Shown: positions 49,584 to 64,000 of the stretch, in pieces
Layout: each line of letters opens with the position of its first letter
Position numbering within the stretch: the first letter of the stretch is position 1
NCBI GenBank assembly: GCA_963920635.1
Contig: OY987298.1
Location: 41,819,787-41,883,786, forward strand
Origin: Pseudeuparius sepicola
Taxonomy: Eukaryota; Arthropoda; Insecta; Coleoptera; Anthribidae
Reading direction: 5' to 3'
DNA length: 64,000 nt
Translations under genes and position numbers: made by a program
The notes under the pieces: generated by a model
Databases searched by the model: none
What the model was told of the DNA's origin: nothing
What the model saw: the letters and a program-made list of their open reading frames with translations, nothing else

Positions 49584-49630
49584 TTTTTTTTGTAGTACAA
49601 ACTTTTTTCCGTATTAGTAGAGATACTAAG

Positions 49631-49676
49631 AGAGCACCAGACCAGACTTGTCGAAACCTGTCTGGTCTGGTACTCT
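49631..49676. repeat. Terminal-region hairpin of the Polinton
   Basis: AGAGCACCAGACCAGAC pairs with GTCTGGTCTGGTACTCT with one mismatch around a 12-nt loop. It begins with AG, as Polinton termini do. Confidence 0.7.
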
Positions 49677-49726
49677 CCTAGGTTTTGCCCGTCTCCCCAC
49701 TCTCTCCCCACTCCTATTGAAACAGC

Positions 49727-49760
49727 TATATAGGAGAGGTTCAACTAAGATCTCATCAGA
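49727..49760 (+). promoter_or_regulatory. TATA box and initiator for the OB-fold-like gene
   Basis: TATATA at 49727 and an arthropod-type initiator TCAGA with its A at 49758, a spacing of 31. The leader to the ATG is 22 nt. Confidence 0.65.
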
Positions 49761-49779
49761 CACGCAGATCATTTACAAC

Positions 49780-50067
49780 ATGTCCTTCTTAAATAGTTTA
49801 AACAATTTGCTGGTGAAAAATCTGGTGAATGTTCGAGATTTGGAAGTAAATAAAAAATTTGAGATCCAGTGTTTTAAGAGAATAAATACCAAGTTTGGGG
49901 AAAAGGTAGTGGTGGAATTTGCCGACTTCAAGACCATCCTGCCTCAGCGTTTTACGGAGCAATTAACTCAAGAGCGAATTGATGAATTGAATGGTGACAA
50001 AAGGTATTTTTTAACAAGCTTGGGGCCCGTCGGCAAGACTACAAATATTATATTTTCTGAAGCATGA
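49780..50067 (+). CDS. Polinton small protein, OB-fold/ssDNA-binding-like
   Basis: This 95-residue protein uses the ATG just after the predicted cap site; the longer open frame upstream lacks an ATG. The sequence alternates short strands (NKKFEIQCFKRINTKFGEKV, VVVEFADFKTILP) then PQRFTEQLTQERI and a final strand ending in IIFSEA. Strand-rich small proteins of this kind, with an LPxRF-type segment, accompany insect Mavericks and suggest an OB fold. A single-stranded DNA-binding role in replication would fit but is inference. The stop overlaps the next start in ATGA. Confidence 0.6.
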   Translation: MSFLNSLNNLLVKNLVNVRDLEVNKKFEIQCFKRINTKFGEKVVVEFADFKTILPQRFTEQLTQERIDELNGDKRYFLTSLGPVGKTTNIIFSEA

Positions 50068-50165
50068 GCGAGAGACTGCGGCGATATATGGAGGCACTCG
50101 AAGAGCTGAGACGCTTGATTATTATGTATGAACTAACTAAAAAGTTTAGAAATGTAAAGTTGTGA
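50064..50165 (+). CDS. 33-residue ORF overlapping the OB-fold-like gene
   Basis: It starts in the ATGA overlap and reads MSERLRRYMEALEELRRLII, then MYELTKKFRNVKL. It is predicted to be one amphipathic helix. An AATAAA follows within about 10 nt. Such stop/start overlap is used for termination-reinitiation in some viruses. It is too short for homology, so it could be chance. Confidence 0.35.
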   Translation: MSERLRRYMEALEELRRLIIMYELTKKFRNVKL

Positions 50166-50390
50166 AAATAAAAAATATTATTTGTTTGTGTGTTTTTTAC
50201 TACAAATCCCAATATTGTCTGCGCACAGATATTCTGATTTTAAACAAAGTGAGAAGTGAGACAGTGAGAAAATATTCTACATAATATCCAATTAGACAAT
50301 TGCTCTAAGAATATGCAAAAAAAAAGTAAAACATTTTTTGAAAAAGTAATTTTTATTTTTTTATTTAAAAAAATATTGCCAATTGCCAAT

Positions 50391-51790: not shown

Positions 51791-51964
51791 TGGAAAATTA
51801 AAGGCTCAGAATGATTTTGTTAGATATTTAATGTGTGGAATGAAACAAGAGAAATATATTTATGTTTTATATTAAAAAAATATATATATACAATAAACAC
51901 TAATTTCTAAATATATACACACTTACATCTAATTGGATAAAATAATGAAACTTATCTATACATA

Positions 51965-53902
51965 CAGTGTGACCCATTTGTTTTGGGGTCAGTCTGTAAA
52001 AAGTGTATCAATCGTGCGATTTGGCTGATTTTTTTTTAAATTGTAGAGCTCGATGAACTGCACATTTTGAACAAAAATTGCCTGGTTCGCATAAAATCCA
52101 AAGCCTACTATGACCGTTTTTATGAGCAAAATTTTAAGAAACCATATTAGCGTTTTTTTTTTAAAAAATCTGTGTGCGCCAATGGATTGAGCACCCCTCG
52201 AAATGGGTATGTACAAAATTTCATCAAAATATTTCAAGTAATAACGATTTTGTAGAAAAATTAAAAATGCAGCCAAGGTACGTCTTTATTTTCAAAAATT
52301 CAAAGTTGGCCATGGAAAATAATTGAATTGTTTACTTTTATTAAGTGTCAAACTGTCTAAATTGAGTTCAGAAATTGTTTGTGCTCAATACAATTAATTA
52401 TCATAATTATGGAATATTTAAGCATAAGAGACAAAATAGAAATTGTTCGACTCGTGGGCGACAACGAGCGCTCGGCAGCAGAAGCTGCGGCCGAATTTAA
52501 CAATAGACACCCAGGTAGATCAGTGAGTCGAAGTACTGTACAACGTATAAACAATATTTTTGATGAAACTGGATCGATTTCTAAAAATTTATTAAAAACT
52601 AGGCAAAATGAACGCCGTGGACTTGTTGAAAATAACAATCAAATTCTGCAATACTTTAGTGACAATCCTCGAAATAGTGTTCGAACGGCTAGTTTAGACC
52701 TTCATATACCCAGAGAGAGTATAAGGAGATGTTTGAGACAAAACAAAATAAAACCGTTTAAGCCAAAATTTTTGCACACCCTGGAACCAGGAGATGAGGA
52801 GAGAAGATTAGAATTTTGCTATTGGCTGCAAGGTGAATATCTCCATAATGGCAACTTTTTAAATGAAATTTTATTCACCGACGAAGCCACGTTTACTACA
52901 AATGGTGTAGTATCAAGTCAAAACTGCCGTCACTGGTCAGCTGAAAATCCAGAGTTTATAATAAATGCAAGGAGACAATATTCACAAAAAATTAACGTTT
53001 GGTGTGGAATACTACGCGACAGAATAATTGGCCCATTTTTCTTTGAAGGGAATTTGAATGCGGCTGGCTTCTTGAATTTTCTAGAAATTGAATTTAGAAA
53101 TGCTTTAGATGAGTTACCATTAAGATACCGTTTAAATTTAAAGTTACAGTTAGATGGCAGTCCTATTCATAATGCTCGTTTAATCAGAAACTGGCTAGAT
53201 AATAATTTTGAAAACTGTTGGATAGGGCGAAATAGTCCTTTCTGTGAGTGGCCACCGAGATCTCCGGACTTAACTCCTTTAGATTTTTTTCTTTGAGGTA
53301 CACTTAAGCAAAATGTTTATAAGTCAAGACCCCATAATTTACAAGAACTGCAAGCTAGGATAAACCGTAGTTGTTAGGAAATTACTCCACAGCAAATACG
53401 AAATGTAATTTTGAATGTACGCAAGAGGAACGACAAATGCATTGTAGAAAATGGAGGCTTGGTAGAAGTTACAAAAATTTTATAATTTTAATTGTTTTTA
53501 TGTTTTGTGTTTATAAGCATAAGGTTGTATTATTACAATTCAATTATTTTCCATGGCCAACTTTGAATTTTTGAAAATAAAGACGTACCTTGGCTGCATT
53601 TTTAATTTTTCTACAAAATCGTTATTACTTGAAATATTTTGATGAAATTTTGTACATACCCATTTCGAGGGGTGCTCAATCCATTGGCGCACACAGATTT
53701 TTTCAAAAAAAAACGCTAATATGGTTTCTTAAAATTTTGCTCATAAAAACGGTCATAGTAGGCTTTGGATTTTATGCGAACCAGGCAATTTTTGTTCAAA
53801 ATGTGCAGTTCATCGAGCTCTACAATTTAAAAAAAAAATCAGCCAAATCGCACGATTGATACACTTTTTACAGACTGACCCCAAAACAAATGGGTCACAC
53901 TG
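51965..53902 (+). mobile_element. Mariner-type transposon (DD41D group) with 366-bp TIRs
   Basis: Ends read CAGTGTGACCCATTTGTTTT inwards, with TA duplicated outside (51963-51964 and 53903-53904). The TIRs 51965-52330 and 53536-53902 are almost identical by eye. The element sits inside the Polinton, 22 bp past the stop codon of the minus-strand four-exon gene. High TIR identity suggests a recent insertion. Confidence 0.9.
52409..53485 (+). pseudogene. DD41D-type mariner transposase with in-frame stops
   Basis: From the ATG at 52409, a helix-turn-helix region (KIEIVRLVGDNERSAAEAAA) and a second DNA-binding helix (RPxR-like, SVRTASLDLHIPRESIRRCL) precede the catalytic domain. LFTDEATFTTNG gives the first Asp, LQLDGSPIHNARLIRN the second, and PPRSPDLTPLDFF the third. 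There are 42 residues between the last two, one more than the copies at 22 and 35 kb. TGA at 53294 sits where a Trp codon is usual, and a TAG follows at 53375; otherwise the frame is open to 53483. A 295-residue product would keep all three Asp residues. Confidence 0.85.
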
Positions 53903-53923
53903 TATACGTATAACTAAATATAT

Positions 53924-55128: not shown

Positions 55129-55656
55129 ATGTCTAACATCAGGTATATCATCGACGCTGATGGCTTTCAAGTTAGTGGAAAGTTCGTTATAAAAGAAATG
55201 TCGATATACGATATGAAATCGAGGGAAGTGACATCCAGGTATTATCGTGTGGGAAACTACCGCAGCCTATCTTCTAAGGATGCATGCACTGCTCGTTGGT
55301 TAACGATGAACTTGCACGGCTTGAAGTTTGAAGATTGTGCAACGGATGAAGCCCAGGAAAGTGCGTTAGAAGAGATTCGGCGTCTGGGGGAGTCCGCTGG
55401 CGATGAACTTATAGCTTACAAGGGAGGACAAGTTGAAAGGAATCTGCTGCAGGCCGCGGGGTATGCCCATTTATCTTACAATATCGAGGATCTAGGCTGC
55501 CCCAAGTTCGACGTCCTTGTTCGGAAGCAGCAGAGGTTCTACGAGCGAGTGCGTGCAAACCAATGTGAGCGACACATCACGAGGCCTGGAAAAGCATTTC
55601 ACTGCCCGAGGGTAGAACTAATGTTTTTTTCTGAATTTATAAGACGATGTAAATAA
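55129..55656 (+). CDS. Polinton protein, possible DEDD-type nuclease-like fold
   Basis: This 175-residue protein starts at the first ATG after a TCAGTG initiator. The N-terminus reads YIIDADGFQVSGKFVIKEM, like a strand carrying paired acidic residues. Then WLTMNLHGLKFED and, later, ELIAYKGGQVERNLLQAAG and YNIEDLGCPKFD. The D-x-D strand followed by a KGG segment and a cysteine-Pro end loosely resembles RNase H-fold exonucleases, but I cannot identify a full catalytic set. Similar proteins recur in insect Mavericks (impression from family knowledge). Function unproven. 55660-55905 is non-coding with an A-rich run. Confidence 0.5.
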   Translation: MSNIRYIIDADGFQVSGKFVIKEMSIYDMKSREVTSRYYRVGNYRSLSSKDACTARWLTMNLHGLKFEDCATDEAQESALEEIRRLGESAGDELIAYKGGQVERNLLQAAGYAHLSYNIEDLGCPKFDVLVRKQQRFYERVRANQCERHITRPGKAFHCPRVELMFFSEFIRRCK

Positions 55657-55968: not shown

Positions 55969-58900
55969 ATGATCGATGGTAATGAAATAGCTACAGAGAG
56001 CGACAAAACTGTAAAGGCATATGAGAAGGTGTTTAACATACTTAATGAAAGTGACAGACCTACACTTCCACAAGTATTACAACGTTGGCAGCAAAAGTTG
56101 CAATTGTCGGTGAGACAGCATTCCTCAGCACTCCGATGTCATTTTCACCAAGGCACTTTGTCAAAGTTGCATGCCAATCTGCAACATCTCAAAAGACTTC
56201 AATTATACTTCAAAACATTATGCAAAACTGGATCTGGTAAGCAACACCTCAATAGAAGTCATCGAGTCAAATGGGTGGACGTTCAAGCAGCGTTCCAGAG
56301 TCGTCTTCGCACAGGTGTTATAGTAAATATGAGGCACATCGATTTATTCCAGTTTTTTGACGATGCATTTATTCTTTTTAAGAGTCGCATAACTAGAACT
56401 TTAAATGCTTTTCACATTGTTAAGGTAAATGCGGTTTTTAATGGTGAATTTGTTAAAATGTCTCAAGATACAGTCATAAGTGACAACAAATGCTTCAACA
56501 CAAAAAATGCTATAATTGACCAGGGGAGTGATTTAAAGTTGTGGTTTACAGATAATATAAAGGATAGGATTATAAAGAAGCTTGAAGATTTTCTTGACAA
56601 TGGATCGGGGTGGGCGTTACGCAAAATTTTGAGTTTAGTCATCAGTATAAATAAAGTTGAGATAGGAAACGGTGCTTCATATCTGCCACTCCCCGTTGAA
56701 ATTTCCAAAAAACAAGCATGTGTCAATGTAAAAAATAGTGATGAAGCATGCTTCTTTTGGAGTGTTATTGCCGCTCTTTACCCCTCTCAAAAGCATATTG
56801 ATCGGGTTAATTCATATCCTCACTACAGGCTGAAATTTAAATTAGATGATATAGACCTACCAATGCAATTATCTCAAATATCGAAATTCGAAAAATTAAA
56901 TGAAATTTCTATAAATGTGTATATTTTGGAGTTGGTAAGTGAGACTCCACGTCAATTTATCACCTCTCCAGCTCGACTAACTAAAAATAAAATGGATAGA
57001 TATGTGAATTTACTTCTAATTCAAAGTCATTATTTTTTGAAAACTAGCGACTTTGAAGCACCGTCTGTCGACGATGCGCACGTTGATATAAAATACCATT
57101 ATTGTTGGATTAAAGATTTATCTAGACTGATTTCGAAACAGTCTAGTAAACATAACGGTAGAAAATTTATATGCGAGAGATGTTTAAATTACTTTTCATC
57201 GCAAGATAAGTTAGAAGAGCATACAGTTTATTGCGAGCAAATAAATAATTGTAAAATCGAGTTTCCCAAAGAGAAGTTTATCGAATTTAAAAATTTTGTT
57301 AATAAAGAACGCACCCCATTCACCCTGTATGCTGACTTTGAAGCAATGCTAAAACCCTGCGGAGATTCTGATGCTAGCCTAAAAACTGTTAAATATCAAA
57401 GACACGAAGCATTCAGTGCCGGTTATTATTTCAAGTGCTCTTTTGACAACTCGCTCTCTTTCTACAAAGCTTATCGCGGGGGAGACTGTATGATATGGTT
57501 TGCCAATCAAATAGAGGAAATTGCTAAGTTTATATCATCCAAATTGAATCTTGTTGAACCTATGGATGAAGCCATAAGTCTTAAAGATGCCACCCCTAAT
57601 TGTCACATTTGCGAGAAAAAATTCAATGTTAACGACATAATTGTACGTGACCACTGTCACCTGTCATCGATGTTTCGAGGTTATGCACATCAAGCGTGCA
57701 ACTTAAATTATAAAAACTCGTTTGTAGTTCCCATCATTTTCCACAATCTTAGTGGGTATGACAGCCACTTTATAATACGAGAACTTGCCAAACGGAATCA
57801 TGTCAACCTACTTCCTGTTAATAATGAAAAATATATAAGCTTTACAGTATTCGATAATGAAACAAATATTAAATTTCGGTTCATCGATTCTTTCAAGTTC
57901 TTGGCCTTTCCTCTCGACAAACTCGCATCATCTCTAAATAGTTTCGAAAACACTAGAAATGAATTTCGATTGTCTTCCGAAAATTTTGACTTGTTAACTA
58001 GGAAAGGGGTTTTTTGTTATGATTATATCGATTCTCTGGAAAAATTGGAAGAAACCGCATTACCATCGATTCAACATTTTTATAACAAATTAAATGACAC
58101 TAATATTAACGAGAAGGATTACGGACATGCGCAATTAATTTGGGAGAGGTTTGGTGTAAAAACCTTGGGTGAGTATTTAGATCTGTACTTAAAGACTGAC
58201 GTGCTCTTGCTCACAGATATATTTGAACACTTTAGAACGACTTGTCTTCAAAATTACGGTTTAGATCCTGCCTGGTACTATACTTTGCCTGGATTCAGTT
58301 GGGATTGCATGCTTCGATATACGAAATGTAAATTAGAAACCTTCCAAGATAGTGACATCTTAATGTTTTTCGAGAGGGCAATTCGAGGTGGGGTAAGCCA
58401 GGTAAGCCACCGCTTTTCTCAGGCCAACAACAAATATATGGCAAACTATGATGCTAGTATGCCATCAAAATATATTCTTTATGCGGACGTTAACAACCTT
58501 TATGGCTGGGCAATGTGTGAACCCCTTCCTTACGGAGGATTTGAGTGGGCCTCCAACGATACTGACGTCACCAAGGTTGCTGACAATGCCGATGAAGGAT
58601 ATATTTTAGAAGTGGATTTGTCGTATCCCGATCATCTTCATGACCATCATAAAGATCTTCCTTTCGCACCTGAACATCGTAAACCTCCAGGTTCCAAAAT
58701 AAAAAAGCTCATGACCACTCTCGATGATAAGAAGAATTATGTGATTCATTATAGAGCGCTTAAGCAAGCTTTACAACATGGTTTTATTCTGAAAAAAATT
58801 CACAAAGTTTTGAAATTTAAGCAGTCTACCTGGTTAGCTCCCTATATACAACTCAATACCCACTTAAGAACTGTGACAACATTAGATTTTGAAAAAAATA

Positions 58901-59706
58901 TAATGAAACTAATGAATAATGCAATCTACGGCAAAACAATGCAAAATGTTAGAAAACATAGGATTGTGAGATTATTAAGGACGTGGGAGGGTAGATACGG
59001 CGCCAAAAATTTAATTTCTAGCCCTCGTTTTAGACATAGGATAATTTTTGAAGAGAATTTAATAAGTGTCGAATTAAATAAGACAAATATTATGTTTGAT
59101 AAACCTCTGTACGTTGGGATGTCTATTCTGGACATATCAAAAACCTGTGTTTACGAATTTCACTATGACTTTATGTTGAAAACATTTTCACCAACTAACT
59201 GCTTATTATTATATACTGATACTGATAGTTTAGTTTACGAAATCCGCTGTGAGGACATGTTCGAGGATGTAATTAAGAATCATATTCATCGGTTTGACAC
59301 TAGTGACTATCCTGCAGATAATCAATATGGAATTCCGCTTGTAAATAAGAAGGTGCCAGGACTGATGAAGGACGAATTAAATGGTCGTATTTTAACACAT
59401 TTTGTTGGACTTAGATCTAAAATGTATACTTATAAGGTTCAAGGAAAAAATTTGTGTGTTAAAAAATCCAAAGGTGTTAGAGGTAGTGTTGTAGCGAAGC
59501 AGATAACGTATCAAGATTATTTCGATTGTTTATTCGATAAGACAGAGAAAATTGTAAATCAACGATCTATACGATCGTTTTCTCATAACGTCTTTAGCAT
59601 AAGTCAATCTAAGATTGGTTTAAATCCATTTGACGATAAGCGATATTTAGTTGATAGTGTTTCAACCCTTCCTTGGGGTCATAAAGATGTACGTGTGGAT
59701 GAATAA
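55969..59706 (+). CDS. polB: Polinton family-B DNA polymerase (protein-primed type)
   Basis: This is an intact 1245-residue frame. The N-terminal 450 residues include a CFFWSVIAALYP segment and a C2H2-like finger (FICERCLNYF, near residue 400). The proofreading exonuclease has ADFEAM (D456, E458), HNLSGYD (N593, D598) and YLKTDVLLL (D744). A Cys/His cluster (CHICEKKF, then DHCH and HQACN) lies at about residues 544-580. The polymerase has DVNNLYGWAM (D840), MNNAIYGKTMQN (K989) and YTDTDS (D1084, D1086). This is the DNA_pol_B_2 type of Polintons, adenoviruses and linear plasmids, which starts DNA synthesis from a terminal protein. It would replicate the element in the nucleus. Length is normal and no break is seen. 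Confidence 0.95.
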   Translation: MIDGNEIATESDKTVKAYEKVFNILNESDRPTLPQVLQRWQQKLQLSVRQHSSALRCHFHQGTLSKLHANLQHLKRLQLYFKTLCKTGSGKQHLNRSHRVKWVDVQAAFQSRLRTGVIVNMRHIDLFQFFDDAFILFKSRITRTLNAFHIVKVNAVFNGEFVKMSQDTVISDNKCFNTKNAIIDQGSDLKLWFTDNIKDRIIKKLEDFLDNGSGWALRKILSLVISINKVEIGNGASYLPLPVEISKKQACVNVKNSDEACFFWSVIAALYPSQKHIDRVNSYPHYRLKFKLDDIDLPMQLSQISKFEKLNEISINVYILELVSETPRQFITSPARLTKNKMDRYVNLLLIQSHYFLKTSDFEAPSVDDAHVDIKYHYCWIKDLSRLISKQSSKHNGRKFICERCLNYFSSQDKLEEHTVYCEQINNCKIEFPKEKFIEFKNFVNKERTPFTLYADFEAMLKPCGDSDASLKTVKYQRHEAFSAGYYFKCSFDNSLSFYKAYRGGDCMIWFANQIEEIAKFISSKLNLVEPMDEAISLKDATPNCHICEKKFNVNDIIVRDHCHLSSMFRGYAHQACNLNYKNSFVVPIIFHNLSGYDSHFIIRELAKRNHVNLLPVNNEKYISFTVFDNETNIKFRFIDSFKFLAFPLDKLASSLNSFENTRNEFRLSSENFDLLTRKGVFCYDYIDSLEKLEETALPSIQHFYNKLNDTNINEKDYGHAQLIWERFGVKTLGEYLDLYLKTDVLLLTDIFEHFRTTCLQNYGLDPAWYYTLPGFSWDCMLRYTKCKLETFQDSDILMFFERAIRGGVSQVSHRFSQANNKYMANYDASMPSKYILYADVNNLYGWAMCEPLPYGGFEWASNDTDVTKVADNADEGYILEVDLSYPDHLHDHHKDLPFAPEHRKPPGSKIKKLMTTLDDKKNYVIHYRALKQALQHGFILKKIHKVLKFKQSTWLAPYIQLNTHLRTVTTLDFEKNIMKLMNNAIYGKTMQNVRKHRIVRLLRTWEGRYGAKNLISSPRFRHRIIFEENLISVELNKTNIMFDKPLYVGMSILDISKTCVYEFHYDFMLKTFSPTNCLLLYTDTDSLVYEIRCEDMFEDVIKNHIHRFDTSDYPADNQYGIPLVNKKVPGLMKDELNGRILTHFVGLRSKMYTYKVQGKNLCVKKSKGVRGSVVAKQITYQDYFDCLFDKTEKIVNQRSIRSFSHNVFSISQSKIGLNPFDDKRYLVDSVSTLPWGHKDVRVDE

Positions 59707-59778: not shown

Positions 59779-59813
59779 TATATATAACCGAGACATCGAG
59801 CTCATTCTGCAGT
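59779..59813 (+). promoter_or_regulatory. TATA box and initiator for the CHHC-finger gene
   Basis: TATATATAA at 59779 and GCAGTC with its A at 59811, a spacing of 30-32. Leader of 34 nt to the ATG. Confidence 0.65.
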
Positions 59814-59844
59814 CTGAAAACTTGTAACAAGAGTTCGCAGCAAC

Positions 59845-60057
59845 ATGTACAACCAGACCATTCAGATCGAATCAGACATGGTGCCCTGCCCCTACATTGC
59901 CAGCCACATGGTACGGAGAAGTCGACTGCAGAATCATCTGGTGAAGTGTCGGCGACAGTTGGGACATGTGCCTGAAATCAATTGGGAAGAGTATTACCGA
60001 CATATCAACAATCAGCCGTCGATGATCATAAGAAATCCCAGGATTGGCCCGGAATAA
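59845..60057 (+). CDS. Single CHHC zinc-finger protein, GTSF1/Asterix-like
   Basis: This is a 70-residue protein. C15, H21, H31 and C35 are spaced C-x5-H-x9-H-x3-C, exactly the CHHC finger of U11-48K, TRM13 and GTSF1 proteins. The context VPCPYIASHMVRRSRLQNHL then VKCRR fits GTSF1 best (CPY at the first Cys, HLxKCR at the end). GTSF1 proteins normally have two fingers and an acidic, Trp-containing tail that binds PIWI. Here one finger is followed by PEINWEEYYRHI, a short acidic segment with W47. In animals GTSF1/Asterix is needed for PIWI-piRNA silencing of transposons. The gene has its own TATA and initiator and two AATAAA signals. An RNA-binding or piRNA-interfering role is inference. Confidence 0.8.
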   Translation: MYNQTIQIESDMVPCPYIASHMVRRSRLQNHLVKCRRQLGHVPEINWEEYYRHINNQPSMIIRNPRIGPE

Positions 60058-60065
60058 AAATGTTG

Positions 60066-60118
60066 TAAAATAAAAATATTGTAAAATAAAAGTCATATTT
60101 TTTAATCAGTGCTTTATT
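60066..60118. terminator. Convergent polyadenylation region
   Basis: Plus-strand AATAAA occurs near 60069 and 60086 after the CHHC gene. A minus-strand AATAAA lies at 60112-60117, overlapping the stop codon of the minus-strand gene. Transcripts from both directions would end within about 50 bp. Confidence 0.65.
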
Positions 60119-60746
60119 CCAACCTTCTTCTATACAAGTCTGCTAACAAAAATTGATTATAATAAGAGTACAGTTCAAAAATGCAATATGTTTCCACGCT
60201 ACATACCGCATTGCACATTAAAAATACAATTTCCATTACATTTATGGCATAGTTACTACGTACTAATAATTCATTGACCTTATCTAAAAAATTAAGGTAA
60301 AAATCATACAATTCAAAATTAATCAAAAAGCTCATCCTTAAAGTCACATATGGTGCGATATTTAGTAGCTCGAAAACCTCTGCTATGGAAAACCATTGGC
60401 TAACACCATTTTTTGCAAGCAACACTCGTTGATTTCCATCTGCAGTCAACATAGTTCTTAACAATATATCGTCAAATCTGATGAACATCGGGGTACCCAG
60501 GTTGTTGGTAAAGTTGTTTAAATTATTCACTAATTCTTTCCACTCCAAATAGTCCAGCGAAATCACATTTCGTCGCACTGTTGATCGGATATTAACTTGG
60601 GGTTTGAAATATCTCATAATGCTCAAACCATTATTAATAATATATGTAGGTAATGTGAAGCATGATGATAGAAGCAGAGAATCTTCGCTTACATTGTTTA
60701 CTTCTTCATGGTCGCTACCATCGGTTTCATAGCCGCTGTCAACCAT
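60114..60746 (-). CDS. Polinton protein of unknown function, possibly PC4-like
   Basis: The ATG at 60746, 17 nt after the integrase stop, is preferred, giving about 210 residues. An earlier ATG at 60797 would overlap the integrase end. The N-terminus is acidic (MVDSGYETDGSDHEE). A segment FKPQVNIRSTVRRNVISLDY then LEWKELVNNLN recalls PC4/p15 single-stranded-DNA-binding folds (xVDIR, then ISL...W..L), and NGVSQWFSIAEVFELLNI follows. The C-terminus is helical and hydrophobic. PC4-like proteins occur with insect Mavericks as far as I recall, so the match is tentative. It is the last gene of the minus-strand block. Confidence 0.5.
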   Translation of the reverse strand: MVDSGYETDGSDHEEVNNVSEDSLLLSSCFTLPTYIINNGLSIMRYFKPQVNIRSTVRRNVISLDYLEWKELVNNLNNFTNNLGTPMFIRFDDILLRTMLTADGNQRVLLAKNGVSQWFSIAEVFELLNIAPYVTLRMSFLINFELYDFYLNFLDKVNELLVRSNYAINVMEIVFLMCNAVCSVETYCIFELYSYYNQFLLADLYRRRLE

Positions 60747-60762
60747 CTTAACACTTGAAGCT

Positions 60763-61689
60763 CTACACGACGTTTGACTCAGAGATCCACGAGTCATGGT
60801 CTTTATCAAAGCCCAACCATCGTACTAGCACCTTCCCCCTCTTTCTACGAAGAATCTTTTCAACCAGGTAGACATCGGGATGTTCAGTTTTTTGCAATTC
60901 TTCGCGGTAAAACCCGCCCTTTATAGGACTTCCATTTAAATCCTCTAGAAGATATGTAGGCGGGATGGTAATTTGTACTTTGCTTATTTTAAACAATTCT
61001 GTACTCCAACTAGGCATATATCCTTTGGCAAATACGTGTTTCACTTTACTTATTCTCACAATATCTCCAACCTTCAATTTACTACCTCTGAAAATCTTCA
61101 CGTGACTATACACTTTTTTAAGCAGATATTGTTCGTTACTTTTATTAACTTGGTTGGGTTTCATCTGAATCACTCTATGCTTTCTGTTATTATACTCGGC
61201 AACTAGCGTAGGCAAATAATCATCCCATTTAAATTTACCATTTAGACTAAAATACTTAAATAATCGCTCTTTTAGAGTTCGTATTACTCTCTCGGCCATG
61301 GCGGCTTTCGTGATGCTAAAAGTGCTGTAATGACTAATTTTGAATTTTCGCATCAAATTTTGAAATCTAGAGTTATAAAACTCTTTGCCCTGATCAGTTT
61401 GAAGGTTGCGAGGCTTTCGAGTTCCCGATAGGATATCAGCAAAGGCGTTGGTAACATCTTCGGCAGACTTGGATTTGAGCGGTCTGCACCAAACAAATTT
61501 AGAGAAGCAATCGATTACAACCAGTATGAATTTGAAGCCATTATTGTGACTAGCATACTGATCTAACTGCGCAAGATCAGCTTGCCACAAATCGTCTAAA
61601 CCTTTAATGATAGTTCGACGACGTGGATAATTTTTTCGCGCTGGTTTATGTAATTCCTTAACTACTTGAATTTTTTCTTTACTATGCAT
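60763..61689 (-). CDS. int: Polinton integrase with C-terminal chromodomain
   Basis: This is a 308-residue rve-type integrase. The catalytic core has LWQADLAQLD (D38), NLQTDQGKEFYN (D99) and KAAMAERVIRTLKE (E133). The spacing from D99 to E133 is 33 residues, close to the usual DDE range for this group. A SH3-like segment (LKVGDIVRISKV) follows. The end, VEKILRRKRGKVLVRWLGFD then SWISESN, is a chromodomain, which in related elements directs integration to marked chromatin. The zinc-binding N-terminal domain appears short or absent. It starts 2 nt after the upstream gene's stop. It inserts the element into host DNA. Confidence 0.95.
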   Translation of the reverse strand: MHSKEKIQVVKELHKPARKNYPRRRTIIKGLDDLWQADLAQLDQYASHNNGFKFILVVIDCFSKFVWCRPLKSKSAEDVTNAFADILSGTRKPRNLQTDQGKEFYNSRFQNLMRKFKISHYSTFSITKAAMAERVIRTLKERLFKYFSLNGKFKWDDYLPTLVAEYNNRKHRVIQMKPNQVNKSNEQYLLKKVYSHVKIFRGSKLKVGDIVRISKVKHVFAKGYMPSWSTELFKISKVQITIPPTYLLEDLNGSPIKGGFYREELQKTEHPDVYLVEKILRRKRGKVLVRWLGFDKDHDSWISESNVV

Positions 61690-61691
61690 GA

Positions 61692-62090
61692 CTATGCTCC
61701 ACCCTCAAGGATCTCTGCAAGTCTGAGAGATAGTAAGGATTGCATGCTCTTACCAGTTATTTTTAAATAATAATCTTCCATAGTTTTAACCAACTCTCTC
61801 AATTCATCGATCTTATCTTGGAAATTGTCTATCATTGTGTTGCGAATATGAAGATCGCATTCATCAGAATGCTGTTTAAGATTTGTGTAAAAATATTTTA
61901 ATGTATGAATGACCCCCTCATCGACATATTGTTTTGTGCTGGCATCGCTTTCATCGATCGGGTGATTAACGTTGCTCAGTCTGCGGTTGCTACAATCATA
62001 GTTTCCTTCTAGAGTCAAATTTAATGTGTAAACAGGTGGGCAAGACCTGCTCCTTGATTTCGAGGCACGTCCGAACTTGTTTAAGGACAT
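61692..62090 (-). CDS. Fibre-like coiled-coil protein, copy 1
   Basis: This 132-residue protein begins MSLNKFGRASKSRS. The segment SNVNHPIDESDASTKQYVD matches the pattern of phage and viral fibre shafts, where a P.D..DA.TK.YVD turn precedes a trimeric coiled coil. The rest (LKYFYTNLKQHSDECDLHIR, then FQDKIDELRELVKTMEDYYL) is heptad-like. It is clearly paralogous to the next gene. A surface fibre or spike role is inferred. It is separated by 2 nt from the integrase start. Confidence 0.65.
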   Translation of the reverse strand: MSLNKFGRASKSRSRSCPPVYTLNLTLEGNYDCSNRRLSNVNHPIDESDASTKQYVDEGVIHTLKYFYTNLKQHSDECDLHIRNTMIDNFQDKIDELRELVKTMEDYYLKITGKSMQSLLSLRLAEILEGGA

Positions 62091-62097
62091 CTTTTAA

Positions 62098-62460
62098 CTA
62101 ACTTGAATGATCTATAGGGACAAATCTGTCTAATAATTTGGGATTTGGCCCGGACTGTTCACCAACCATTTTTAAATAACATTCTTCAACAATTTTAACA
62201 AATTTTCTTATTTCATCGATCTCTTTCTCCAAAGCGTCTTTCACGCTACTCTCAATATTAACATCATGTTGTTCGAGCGTGACGTTAAAAGTTTTGAATG
62301 CCTCATTCATTTGTTTGTCAACATATTGCTTTGTCACAACATCATTGCTGCTAATCGGATAATTAACGTTGCACAGTCTGCGGGTTTTCAAATCATAATC
62401 CCCGTCATTCAACGAGTAAGGAATAGTCCTTGAAACACGTCCGAACTTGTTTAAAGGCAT
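62098..62460 (-). CDS. Fibre-like coiled-coil protein, copy 2
   Basis: This 120-residue paralogue of copy 1 shares LNKFGR at the start, DYDLKTRRLCNVNYPISSND then VVTKQYVD, and the later KEIDEIRKFVKIVEECYLK coiled coil. Only 7 nt separate its stop from the start of copy 1. Divergence is substantial, so the duplication is old and both copies are probably kept for function. Same inferred role. Confidence 0.65.
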   Translation of the reverse strand: MPLNKFGRVSRTIPYSLNDGDYDLKTRRLCNVNYPISSNDVVTKQYVDKQMNEAFKTFNVTLEQHDVNIESSVKDALEKEIDEIRKFVKIVEECYLKMVGEQSGPNPKLLDRFVPIDHSS

Positions 62461-62473
62461 CTTATAAATAACG

Positions 62474-63412
62474 TTAGAGAATAATTTTTGCTTCTTTCAA
62501 TTCATTGATTATTGCTGTTATTTCGTTTTCGTGGGAAGTATTTCCGGCATCTTTTGATGCTATTAATAACCTTAACCTGTCCACAAGTTCATTAGGATCA
62601 TCCCAGTAAACATATTCCACAGGTTTTGTGTTATACTTAAGATGCATGCCAGAACCCTTTACAGGTGTGGAGGTAGCCACCGGGCCCTTCATAAGAGGTT
62701 TAATAATATTAGAATACTTATTTTTGTAGCTATGTTTTAATCGTCCGTTTGAAGTAAGATGAGCACCAGTGAGATTTAAAATATCTCTGTAACTTTTCAA
62801 ATCATCATCAGTACCTTCTGGATTATTATAGAAAATTAGCTGGTAGAGACCATCAGTTCCCGCGAATCGGCTATTGTTGATGATTATATCACCAGACGTT
62901 TTTTCAAAATCGATATATTTATTTCCTAGCATCCATACTGATTTAGTTTCGTCATACTTAGGACCATATGTCCTATCGATTTTAAGTGAATTAGCCATAA
63001 AGTCTGTTATACATGGTATAGATACTTTAGGATACACAGTATCAAAATGCCTGTACACTTTGTCAATTCCTTTCTCAACATCATTTAACGTTTCATTCAT
63101 TTCTCCTAAAAGTGCAATTGGACTTTTCAACGACTCGCGCCACTTTTCCATAAATGATTCAACTTTTGATTCAACTTTTGGTTCAACTTTCGGTTTTAAT
63201 TCTTGCTTAACTTGTAAATTTGCTAGAGAGCTTGTCACAGGTTTGAAAATTTTTTGTAAAGTTTCATTCTCATCAAATTTCCCTATTTTTAAGGCGGTGT
63301 ATTTTTTTCTAATCGTTCGAGCTAGTTCACTGATTTTCTTTGCGCGCTGCGCTTCTTGAATCTGTTCTTGCATCGACATCTCGATTAATAATAAGCGTAT
63401 TGTGCTTCTCAT
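62474..63412 (-). CDS. DUF8207-type Polinton protein
   Basis: This 312-residue protein has a basic, helical N-terminus (ARTIRKKYTALKIGKF) and a Lys/Glu-Pro-Val repeat (KPKVEPKVESKVES, about residues 73-86). The conserved body contains YGPKYDETKSVWMLGNKYID, then GTDGLYQLIF and LKHSYKNKYSNIIKPL. The hallmark end is YVYWDDPNELVDRLRLLIAS, then AGNTSHENEITAIINEL. This domain is widespread with insect Mavericks and is thought to be a virion component (family knowledge). Its ATG overlaps the ATPase stop by 4 nt. A second ATG 12 codons in is an alternative start. Confidence 0.8.
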   Translation of the reverse strand: MRSTIRLLLIEMSMQEQIQEAQRAKKISELARTIRKKYTALKIGKFDENETLQKIFKPVTSSLANLQVKQELKPKVEPKVESKVESFMEKWRESLKSPIALLGEMNETLNDVEKGIDKVYRHFDTVYPKVSIPCITDFMANSLKIDRTYGPKYDETKSVWMLGNKYIDFEKTSGDIIINNSRFAGTDGLYQLIFYNNPEGTDDDLKSYRDILNLTGAHLTSNGRLKHSYKNKYSNIIKPLMKGPVATSTPVKGSGMHLKYNTKPVEYVYWDDPNELVDRLRLLIASKDAGNTSHENEITAIINELKEAKIIL

Positions 63413-64000
63413 AACTTTATATACCTATCAAAACCTATTCTATAGCGTCCCTCATTCATATTGAAATCTTTAACAATAACTAGAGTTCCAAAATTATCAT
63501 TCCAACAGAGCGAGCAGAGATTCTTGAAATCACCGTATGAGATGTCTGGTGATACGTGCTCTTCATAAATATGTCTAAGGTTTACCTCATCTTGTTTAAA
63601 CAAAACGATTACATTACAATTGTCTCGTATTAATTGCTTAGGTATTTTTGAATATGTCTGGCAGAGATATGCAGCATCTATATTTTTATGACGACCCATG
63701 GAGTAATATTCTCTAATTTTTTCCTGTGTCCCACAAGCCACATCATCGAAAATAAAAATTGAATTTTCTCTAGCCTCTGTTGGTGCAATGACGTCATCGT
63801 TTGAGCTAAATGGAAAATATCCAACACATTTTGCTTCTTTAAGCACGTCTTGTAGTAACTGATATTTAGGTTGGTATAGAGATTTACTGTAAAGGTAGAT
63901 GTTCTTAAATTTTAAGCCATTCTCGTTGAATATTAAACTAAGCAGACTGTTTGTTTTACCACAACCGCTAGGACCGCAAAATATTGCTCTAATTGAATTT
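63409..64000 (-). CDS. Polinton packaging ATPase (FtsK/HerA type), partial
   Basis: The frame runs in from beyond the right edge, so the start is not visible. Walker A is FCGPSGCGKTNSLL near 63965, and Walker B is SIFIFDDVA near 63755. Later motifs include NIDAAYLCQTYSKIPKQLIR, with the sensor-like Gln and Arg, and NCNVIVLFKQDE. This matches the A32-like ATPases that pump viral DNA into capsids. About 197 residues are present to the stop at 63409. No break was seen. Confidence 0.92.
   Translation of the reverse strand, partial: NSIRAIFCGPSGCGKTNSLLSLIFNENGLKFKNIYLYSKSLYQPKYQLLQDVLKEAKCVGYFPFSSNDDVIAPTEARENSIFIFDDVACGTQEKIREYYSMGRHKNIDAAYLCQTYSKIPKQLIRDNCNVIVLFKQDEVNLRHIYEEHVSPDISYGDFKNLCSLCWNDNFGTLVIVKDFNMNEGRYRIGFDRYIKL

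Follow-up and report, generated by a model that had tools for sequence, protein, structure and literature searches.

The described systems closest to the locus reported here include GTSF1 and the TART elements of flies. According to the accessible parts of PMC9385479 and PMC9539491, GTSF1 binds PIWI proteins through aromatic residues located after its fingers; the same part of PMC9385479 states that mouse GTSF1 uses three tryptophans for this binding and that residues R26, R29, K36, and K39 of the mouse protein are needed for RNA binding and for PIWI stimulation. In the accessible part of PMC9539491, no more than three groups of eukaryotic proteins are described as having CHHC fingers. A transposon acting on the piRNA machinery is known from flies, whose piRNA machinery is targeted by TART elements; unlike the case below, this involves a TART-A insertion in nxf2, a gene of the host, and not a GTSF1-like protein (PMC7785250, accessible in part). 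In the titles and abstract beginnings of the papers listed, most subscription papers being outside reach, no mobile element with a GTSF1-like protein was described.

We analyzed a 64-kb stretch of DNA, called the window throughout, in which a Polinton carries a 70-residue ORF encoding a CHHC zinc finger (Table 1). The zinc ligands are C15, H21, H31, and C35, in the exact C-x5-H-x9-H-x3-C spacing that the preliminary description had claimed, and no match to this pattern was found outside the ORF in any of the six frames of the window. The HMM search placed the ORF product in the Pfam family zf-U11-48K (PF05253) with an E value of 1.6e-8 and 34.7 bits, above the curated cut-off of 21.1 bits, and this was its sole Pfam match at E values up to 0.1. 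Related ORFs at two other loci, L108 and L112, scored 29.0 and 35.2 bits against the same family. The single finger and the short acidic tail with a tryptophan, also claimed earlier, were both recovered, as there is one CHHC match and the tail reads EINWEEYY. The ORF had further been said to possess its own TATA box, initiator, and polyadenylation signals. The window contains all three: TATAWAW at 59779/59781; GCAGTC, which resembles an initiator, at 59809-59814; and three AATAAA signals (60053, 60069, and 60085), of which the first shares letters with the stop codon. Locus L108, from a second Polinton family described below, likewise has a TATA box, but no initiator-like site occurs there at the TATA spacing of the window, and this part of the claim is not confirmed by the second family.

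Table 1. Coordinates of the CHHC ORF, its flanking signals, and other features of the Polinton and of a related family (window positions unless another locus is named).
Feature	Position	Strand	Remarks
Left terminal inverted repeat	49616..50199		584 bp; CGTATT target duplication outside
ORF upstream of polB, same element	55129..55656	+	175 aa; GC3 0.49; no Pfam match
polB	55969..59706	+	1245 aa, open frame; closest named relatives are beetle proteins
TATA box (TATAWAW) and initiator-like GCAGTC	59779..59814	+	5' of the ATG at 59845
CHHC-finger ORF	59845..60057	+	70 aa; finger domain, residues 12-38; conserved tail, residues 39-70
CHHC finger, C15 to C35	59887..59949	+	Pattern match in six-frame scan
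AATAAA signals	60053..60091	+	Within a tandem repeat (unit 16 bp, 2.4 copies)
Convergent Polinton gene, function not assigned	60114..60809	-	231 aa; used here as neighbor control
rve integrase	60763..61689	-	Pfam; chromo-like end under the Pfam cut-off
A32-like packaging ATPase	63409..63999	-	Pfam; runs off the window
BIR-RING inhibitor-of-apoptosis type	L035:205-627, outside the window	-	140 aa; BIR E 4.9e-21, RING 6.8e-12
Third-family example	C3:36503150-36503790 and other places (L114-L116)		polB 84% identical to family 2

The identification of the carrier as a Polinton was borne out. The element is complete and 19,500 bp long, with most of its length at the right end of the window, and its right terminal repeat lies beyond the window (L035 4532-5115; 584 bp, 99.5% identical to the left one). 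The terminal repeats start AGTAGAGATAC, and the 6-bp target duplication CGTATT is found outside both ends. Apart from polB, the rve integrase, and the A32-like ATPase, the element encodes a double jelly-roll (DJR) capsid protein (E 1.6e-76) and a PLA2-like (phospholipase-like) protein, both beyond the window. polB was identified by homology, some of its relatives being annotated as DNA polymerase, with no Pfam polymerase family at E values up to 0.1; because its closest named relatives come from beetles, the host is probably a beetle. A candidate adenain/Ulp1-like protease, likewise beyond the window, matched Peptidase_C48 with 19.2 bits, under the cut-off of 20.7. Terminal inverted repeats starting AGT, a 6-bp duplication, polB, integrase, ATPase, DJR capsid, and a PLA2-like gene are as in Polinton/Maverick (adintovirus-like) elements, from which the carrier differs by the CHHC ORF and perhaps by a BIR-RING apoptosis inhibitor, both additional accessory genes. 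The PDB matches shown for the BIR-RING protein are BIRC/XIAP proteins and “Apoptosis 1 inhibitor.” Host-interaction genes therefore belong to the kit of this Polinton, an observation that is silent on piRNA.

Several other features of the element were recorded. A Tc1/mariner-type transposon is nested in it at 51962-53905, with inverted ends of 303 bp (100%) and 79 bp (99%) and a 305-aa frame whose matches to HTH_Tnp_Tc3_2 and DDE_3 fall just under the cut-offs. Two adjoining minus-strand ORFs (61692-62090 and 62098-62460) look like a tandem duplicate, both starting M-x-LNKFGR and each having a weak phage-tail-fiber-like Pfam match below the cut-off. A 139-aa ORF, the left copy of which is without a Pfam match, is found at both ends of the Polinton (49648-50067 and L035:4664-5083) because it is located within the terminal repeat.

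The ORF was then followed through the source genome (769 Mb in 16 contigs), on which all evidence of conservation rests. When the protein was compared with the genome, the 150 best of 403 candidate places were scored; all 150 match residues 1-70, 110 at 100% identity, and three have an internal stop. In all 30 excised loci the alignment with the window runs through the end of polB and the ORF and reaches the convergent gene; some of these loci exit the element ahead of the integrase. With the convergent neighbor gene as query, 132 of the 150 best places (out of 1469) proved to have a scored ORF match no more than 3 kb away. At the remaining 18, the ORF region is still present in 16, some with deletions, and absent in two. 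We examined 98 copy records (30 picked by ORF identity, 20 for divergence, and 48 from the neighbor list), several of which cover the same copy. The ORF is unchanged in 43 of the 98 records, and in the 96 fetched records containing it no amino-acid substitution of a zinc ligand was seen. Basic positions are altered in a few copies (R24Q in L045 and L051; K34N in L046/L071), exceptions in the tail, among copies read here or for the second family below, are E44V in L106, E44K in L098, and W47C in L107, and deletions or stops of the ORF are present in some copies.

A second multi-copy group was found by a genome search with a frog GTSF1-like protein. Its locus L108 belongs to a second Polinton family, in which the C-terminus of polB shares 66.5% identity with its counterpart in the window. 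In this family a 71-residue ORF lies 138 nt 3' of polB, the same distance as in the window, with 52% identity over its full length. Among the 150 best of 395 places returned by an ORF search covering both families, 117 rows belong to family 2, with identities of 78-100% (46 rows being fully identical), and the other 33 to family 1, with 51-54%. A polB search (150 best of 2098 places) gave 111 places of family 2; an ORF match lies within 1.2 kb on the same strand in 88, and 23 are without one among the matches listed. The other 39 places belong to a third family. None of these 39 has a family-2 ORF match within 5 kb among the family-2 matches listed, and in the three copies read (L114-L116) no more than a short spacer, without a CHHC ORF, separates polB from the convergent gene. 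As to related Mavericks, within this one genome the ORF thus recurs in two families and is missing from a third, in three of three copies read. Given this distribution, the 70-aa ORF is an accessory Polinton gene. Its absence from family 3 would fit loss and exchange between families alike.

The preliminary description had made purifying selection a test of the ORF, and selection was seen between diverged copies. Comparison of the window ORF with L112, whose DNA is ~92% identical to the window copy, gave a dS of 0.276, a dN of 0.031, and a dN/dS of 0.11 (one-sided Fisher p 6.9e-5), and comparison with L113 gave a dN/dS of 0.30 (p 0.025), both partners having been chosen by their high PF05253 search rank, a choice that favors intact fingers. 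Outside the finger the ratios were 0.11 (p 9e-4) with L112 and 0.42 (p 0.16) with L113. Between families (window versus L108), silent sites are saturated (pS 0.90) and pN is 0.29. By part, pN is 0.26 in the finger, 0.25 in the tail, and 0.47 in the first 11 residues, compared with 0.20 in polB; finger and tail are equally constrained, near polB, and the first 11 residues less so. No purifying selection was seen inside the young family 1, where changes look neutral: nine of the 12 distinct ORF variants in 30 neighbor-chosen copies are non-synonymous, as are all three ORF differences common to at least three of four older-subfamily copies. Judged from dN/dS and from between-family pN versus pS, the ORF encodes a protein that has long been of use to the element, under purifying selection between diverged copies.

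GC3 is 0.61 in the CHHC ORF versus 0.33 in polB. This ORF and the one upstream of polB, both small plus-strand genes, are at 0.61 and 0.49, versus 0.28-0.40 in seven other frames, and polB holds no stretch of 70 codons with GC3 above 0.49. Recent host capture was considered as a source of the high GC3; it is not favored, because the two families share the ORF and its silent sites are saturated.

Which CHHC family the finger belongs to was addressed by several comparisons. Among the PDB matches of the ORF product, mouse GTSF1 ranks first (9e-8), ahead of the SIWI-complex GTSF1 (3.5e-6) and U11-48K (0.0026). Per-finger scores are close (23.0 and 19.7 bits for GTSF1, 19.6 and 20.6 bits for U11-48K), and the U11-48K alignment extends past the finger, RKMGY facing RQLGH of the ORF. 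Over 23 finger residues, identity to GTSF1-type first fingers is 13 for the host protein L104, 14 for the frog protein P0128, 12 for mouse, and 11 for the SIWI-complex GTSF1, compared with nine for U11-48K, eight, eight, and five for three second fingers, and seven for the first finger of a second host protein, L105. BLOSUM scores are 87, 80, 77, and 66 for the same four first fingers, 57 for U11-48K, at most 51 for the three second fingers, and 48 for the L105 first finger. In these comparisons and in the tree, U11-48K is represented by the human sequence only; TRM13 is represented, in the tree, by a single human finger. The tree of 38 distinct fingers places both Polinton fingers with GTSF1 first fingers, a split separating them from second fingers, U11-48K, and TRM13 at 76.8 SH-aLRT / 88 UFboot, a support under the usual thresholds for a tree built on 23 residues. 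The first finger of L105 falls on the U11-48K side of this tree, and the whole L105 protein matches GTSF1 best in the PDB. The two host GTSF1-type genes differ in form: L104 (C10:24316600-24317000) appears to have an intron within the second finger. The frame of L105 (C3:8668400-8668900) is short, has no interruption, and closes with SCEENWDD; its second finger has x10 spacing.

The residues required in mouse GTSF1, R26, R29, K36, and K39, correspond to R24, R27, K34, and R37 in the window ORF and to K, R, K, and R in L108, compared with P, S, S, and L in U11-48K. The four basic positions are kept in five of six family-2 copies read, the fourth being S (R37S) in L111. A profile comparison by hhalign with the GTSF1-type profile gave 97.5% and an E value of 8.4e-12, with an alignment restricted to the finger. 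The AlphaFold model of the protein has a mean pLDDT of 67.8, and its Foldseek matches (mouse GTSF1, E 0.059; U11-48K, 0.12) are too weak to discriminate. A three-row profile search of proteins, with a length range of about 39-122 aa and not an insect survey, matched 16 of 16 candidates. Fifteen of these are vertebrate records, bearing the names GTSF1, CHHC-domain protein, or hypothetical protein, and the sixteenth has no name.

Taken together, the Polinton finger groups, with modest support, with GTSF1 finger 1 over finger 2, U11-48K, and TRM13. The two outcomes that the preliminary description had named as refuting it, absence of the ORF from related Mavericks together with a lack of purifying selection and a firm placement of the finger with U11-48K/TRM13, were thus not seen in this one genome, although one of the three Polinton families is without the ORF in the copies read. 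U11-48K (SNRNP48) shares the CHHC spacing, the CPY start, and a G shortly past the finger but differs at the basic RNA-binding positions; TRM13 shares the spacing. The likeness to GTSF1/Asterix comprises the sequence of finger 1, the four basic positions, and a tail tryptophan with N/D before it and an acid or amide after it. However, GTSF1 has two fingers, is usually longer than 70 aa, and is not encoded by a mobile element. Judged by its sequence, the ORF product is not GTSF1 proper, because the second finger is absent. The GTSF1-like context and the expected tree position thus stand in part: the finger falls on the side of GTSF1 finger 1, but weakly and with a host first finger outside the group, the second finger is missing, and the likeness of the tail is partial.

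The second-family counterpart of EINWEEYY is EVNWQEYF, and most Polinton tail rows read E-(I/V)-(N/D)-W-(E/Q)-E-Y. Aligned GTSF1-type tails, from host L105 and ten vertebrate rows, share the motif E-[D/N]-W-[D/E], of which E and W never vary; five of fifteen vertebrate records (P0121, P0125, P0127, P0133, and P0134) were left out because they end or diverge before the tryptophan motif. The SIWI-complex GTSF1 tail is DENWDD. W47, the only tryptophan in the Polinton tail, is thus flanked as in GTSF1, except that position W-2 is I or V and not the invariant E. The tail also has a conserved sequence of its own around QLxHVPxxxWxEY, which is missing from GTSF1-type rows, and the hhalign profile comparison found no extension into the tail. 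A shuffle test of the tryptophan motif gave 1.35e-4; it is given little weight because it is post hoc, the motif having been picked after the host tails were seen and ignoring the absent E at W-2. The resemblance of the tail to the PIWI-binding region of GTSF1 is partial and suggestive only.

No protein sharing three words was found in a protein homolog search with the ORF alone. IMG/VR protein scans with the ORF, integrase, ATPase, polB C-terminus, and two-family ORF alignment confirmed no relative; the strict finger pattern had no match in IMG/VR, and a looser one was found in four contigs, of which three translate to matches without likeness beyond the pattern and the fourth was not recovered by a regular expression. 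No ORF match was obtained by phage tblastn or in PHROGs, both at E values up to 1, and Rfam gave none on the window at gathering scores.

We propose that the ORF product would act as a truncated GTSF1, because finger 1 and an aromatic-acidic tail are present and the second finger is absent. From what is known of GTSF1, a finger with its RNA-binding basic positions would bind structured RNA such as tRNA; the truncated protein would take up sites on RNA or PIWI but not help to cleave targets, which is the least certain step, and piRNA silencing of the Polinton would be dampened as a result. We consider it nearly an even bet that this accessory gene encodes such a GTSF1-finger-1-like, RNA-binding, truncated GTSF1, and an anti-piRNA decoy role is our leading guess. 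Held more tentatively is a single-finger GTSF1 mimic that would bind RNA and/or PIWI and poison GTSF1-stimulated piRNA cleavage, its patchy presence among families being as in an arms race. The strongest rival to a GTSF1 competitor is an RNA-binding factor (perhaps binding tRNA) that would assist the Polinton in its own expression and life cycle, for instance in handling transcripts, in translation, or in packaging, with a finger of GTSF1-like origin and no role in piRNA silencing. This would agree with a likeness to GTSF1 that is clear in the finger only, with a tail conserved around a sequence of its own, and with the structured-RNA binding shown for all three known CHHC protein groups in the accessible part of PMC9539491. 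However, the third family replicates without the ORF, as several of its polB frames are open over 1255 codons, and accessory genes of such a pattern are probably more often host-facing; we regard the helper as somewhat unlikely.

The truncated-GTSF1 reading was also weighed against three others. CHHC and C2H2 fingers have a common global fold (PMC9539491, in its accessible part), and a protein this small, with one finger and with a TATA box ahead of its ORF, could regulate transcription of the Polinton or of the host by binding nucleic acid, its CHHC finger working in the manner of C2H2 fingers. The basic positions that are conserved are, however, the RNA-binding ones of GTSF1. Moreover, a lone C2H2-like finger seldom gives DNA specificity, and such a regulator seems improbable. 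A finger of the U11-48K or TRM13 branch, touching minor splicing or tRNA modification, would be in line with U11-48K being the next PDB match, near in per-finger score and alignable past the finger, but it is at odds with the tree split, with the residues of U11-48K at the four basic positions, and with a length of 70 aa, which cannot accommodate the methyltransferase domain of TRM13; we hold it to be very unlikely. The neutral-looking variants of the young family, the non-synonymous ones shared by older copies, and the deleted or interrupted copies are what a chance ORF or a decaying passenger without function would give. The low dN/dS between diverged copies and the intact zinc ligands speak against it, and the chance ORF is refuted by the excess of pS over pN between families, which leaves a functionless passenger hardly credible.

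A constrained GTSF1-type CHHC finger on a mobile element would widen the known range of this domain. The Polinton ORF would also offer a direct test of whether animal transposons encode proteins countering the piRNA pathway: binding and cleavage assays are easy because the protein has 70 aa, and a natural comparison is available because Polinton families with and without the ORF share one genome. If the proposed role is true, the ORF product would be a protein with which a transposon antagonizes the piRNA pathway.
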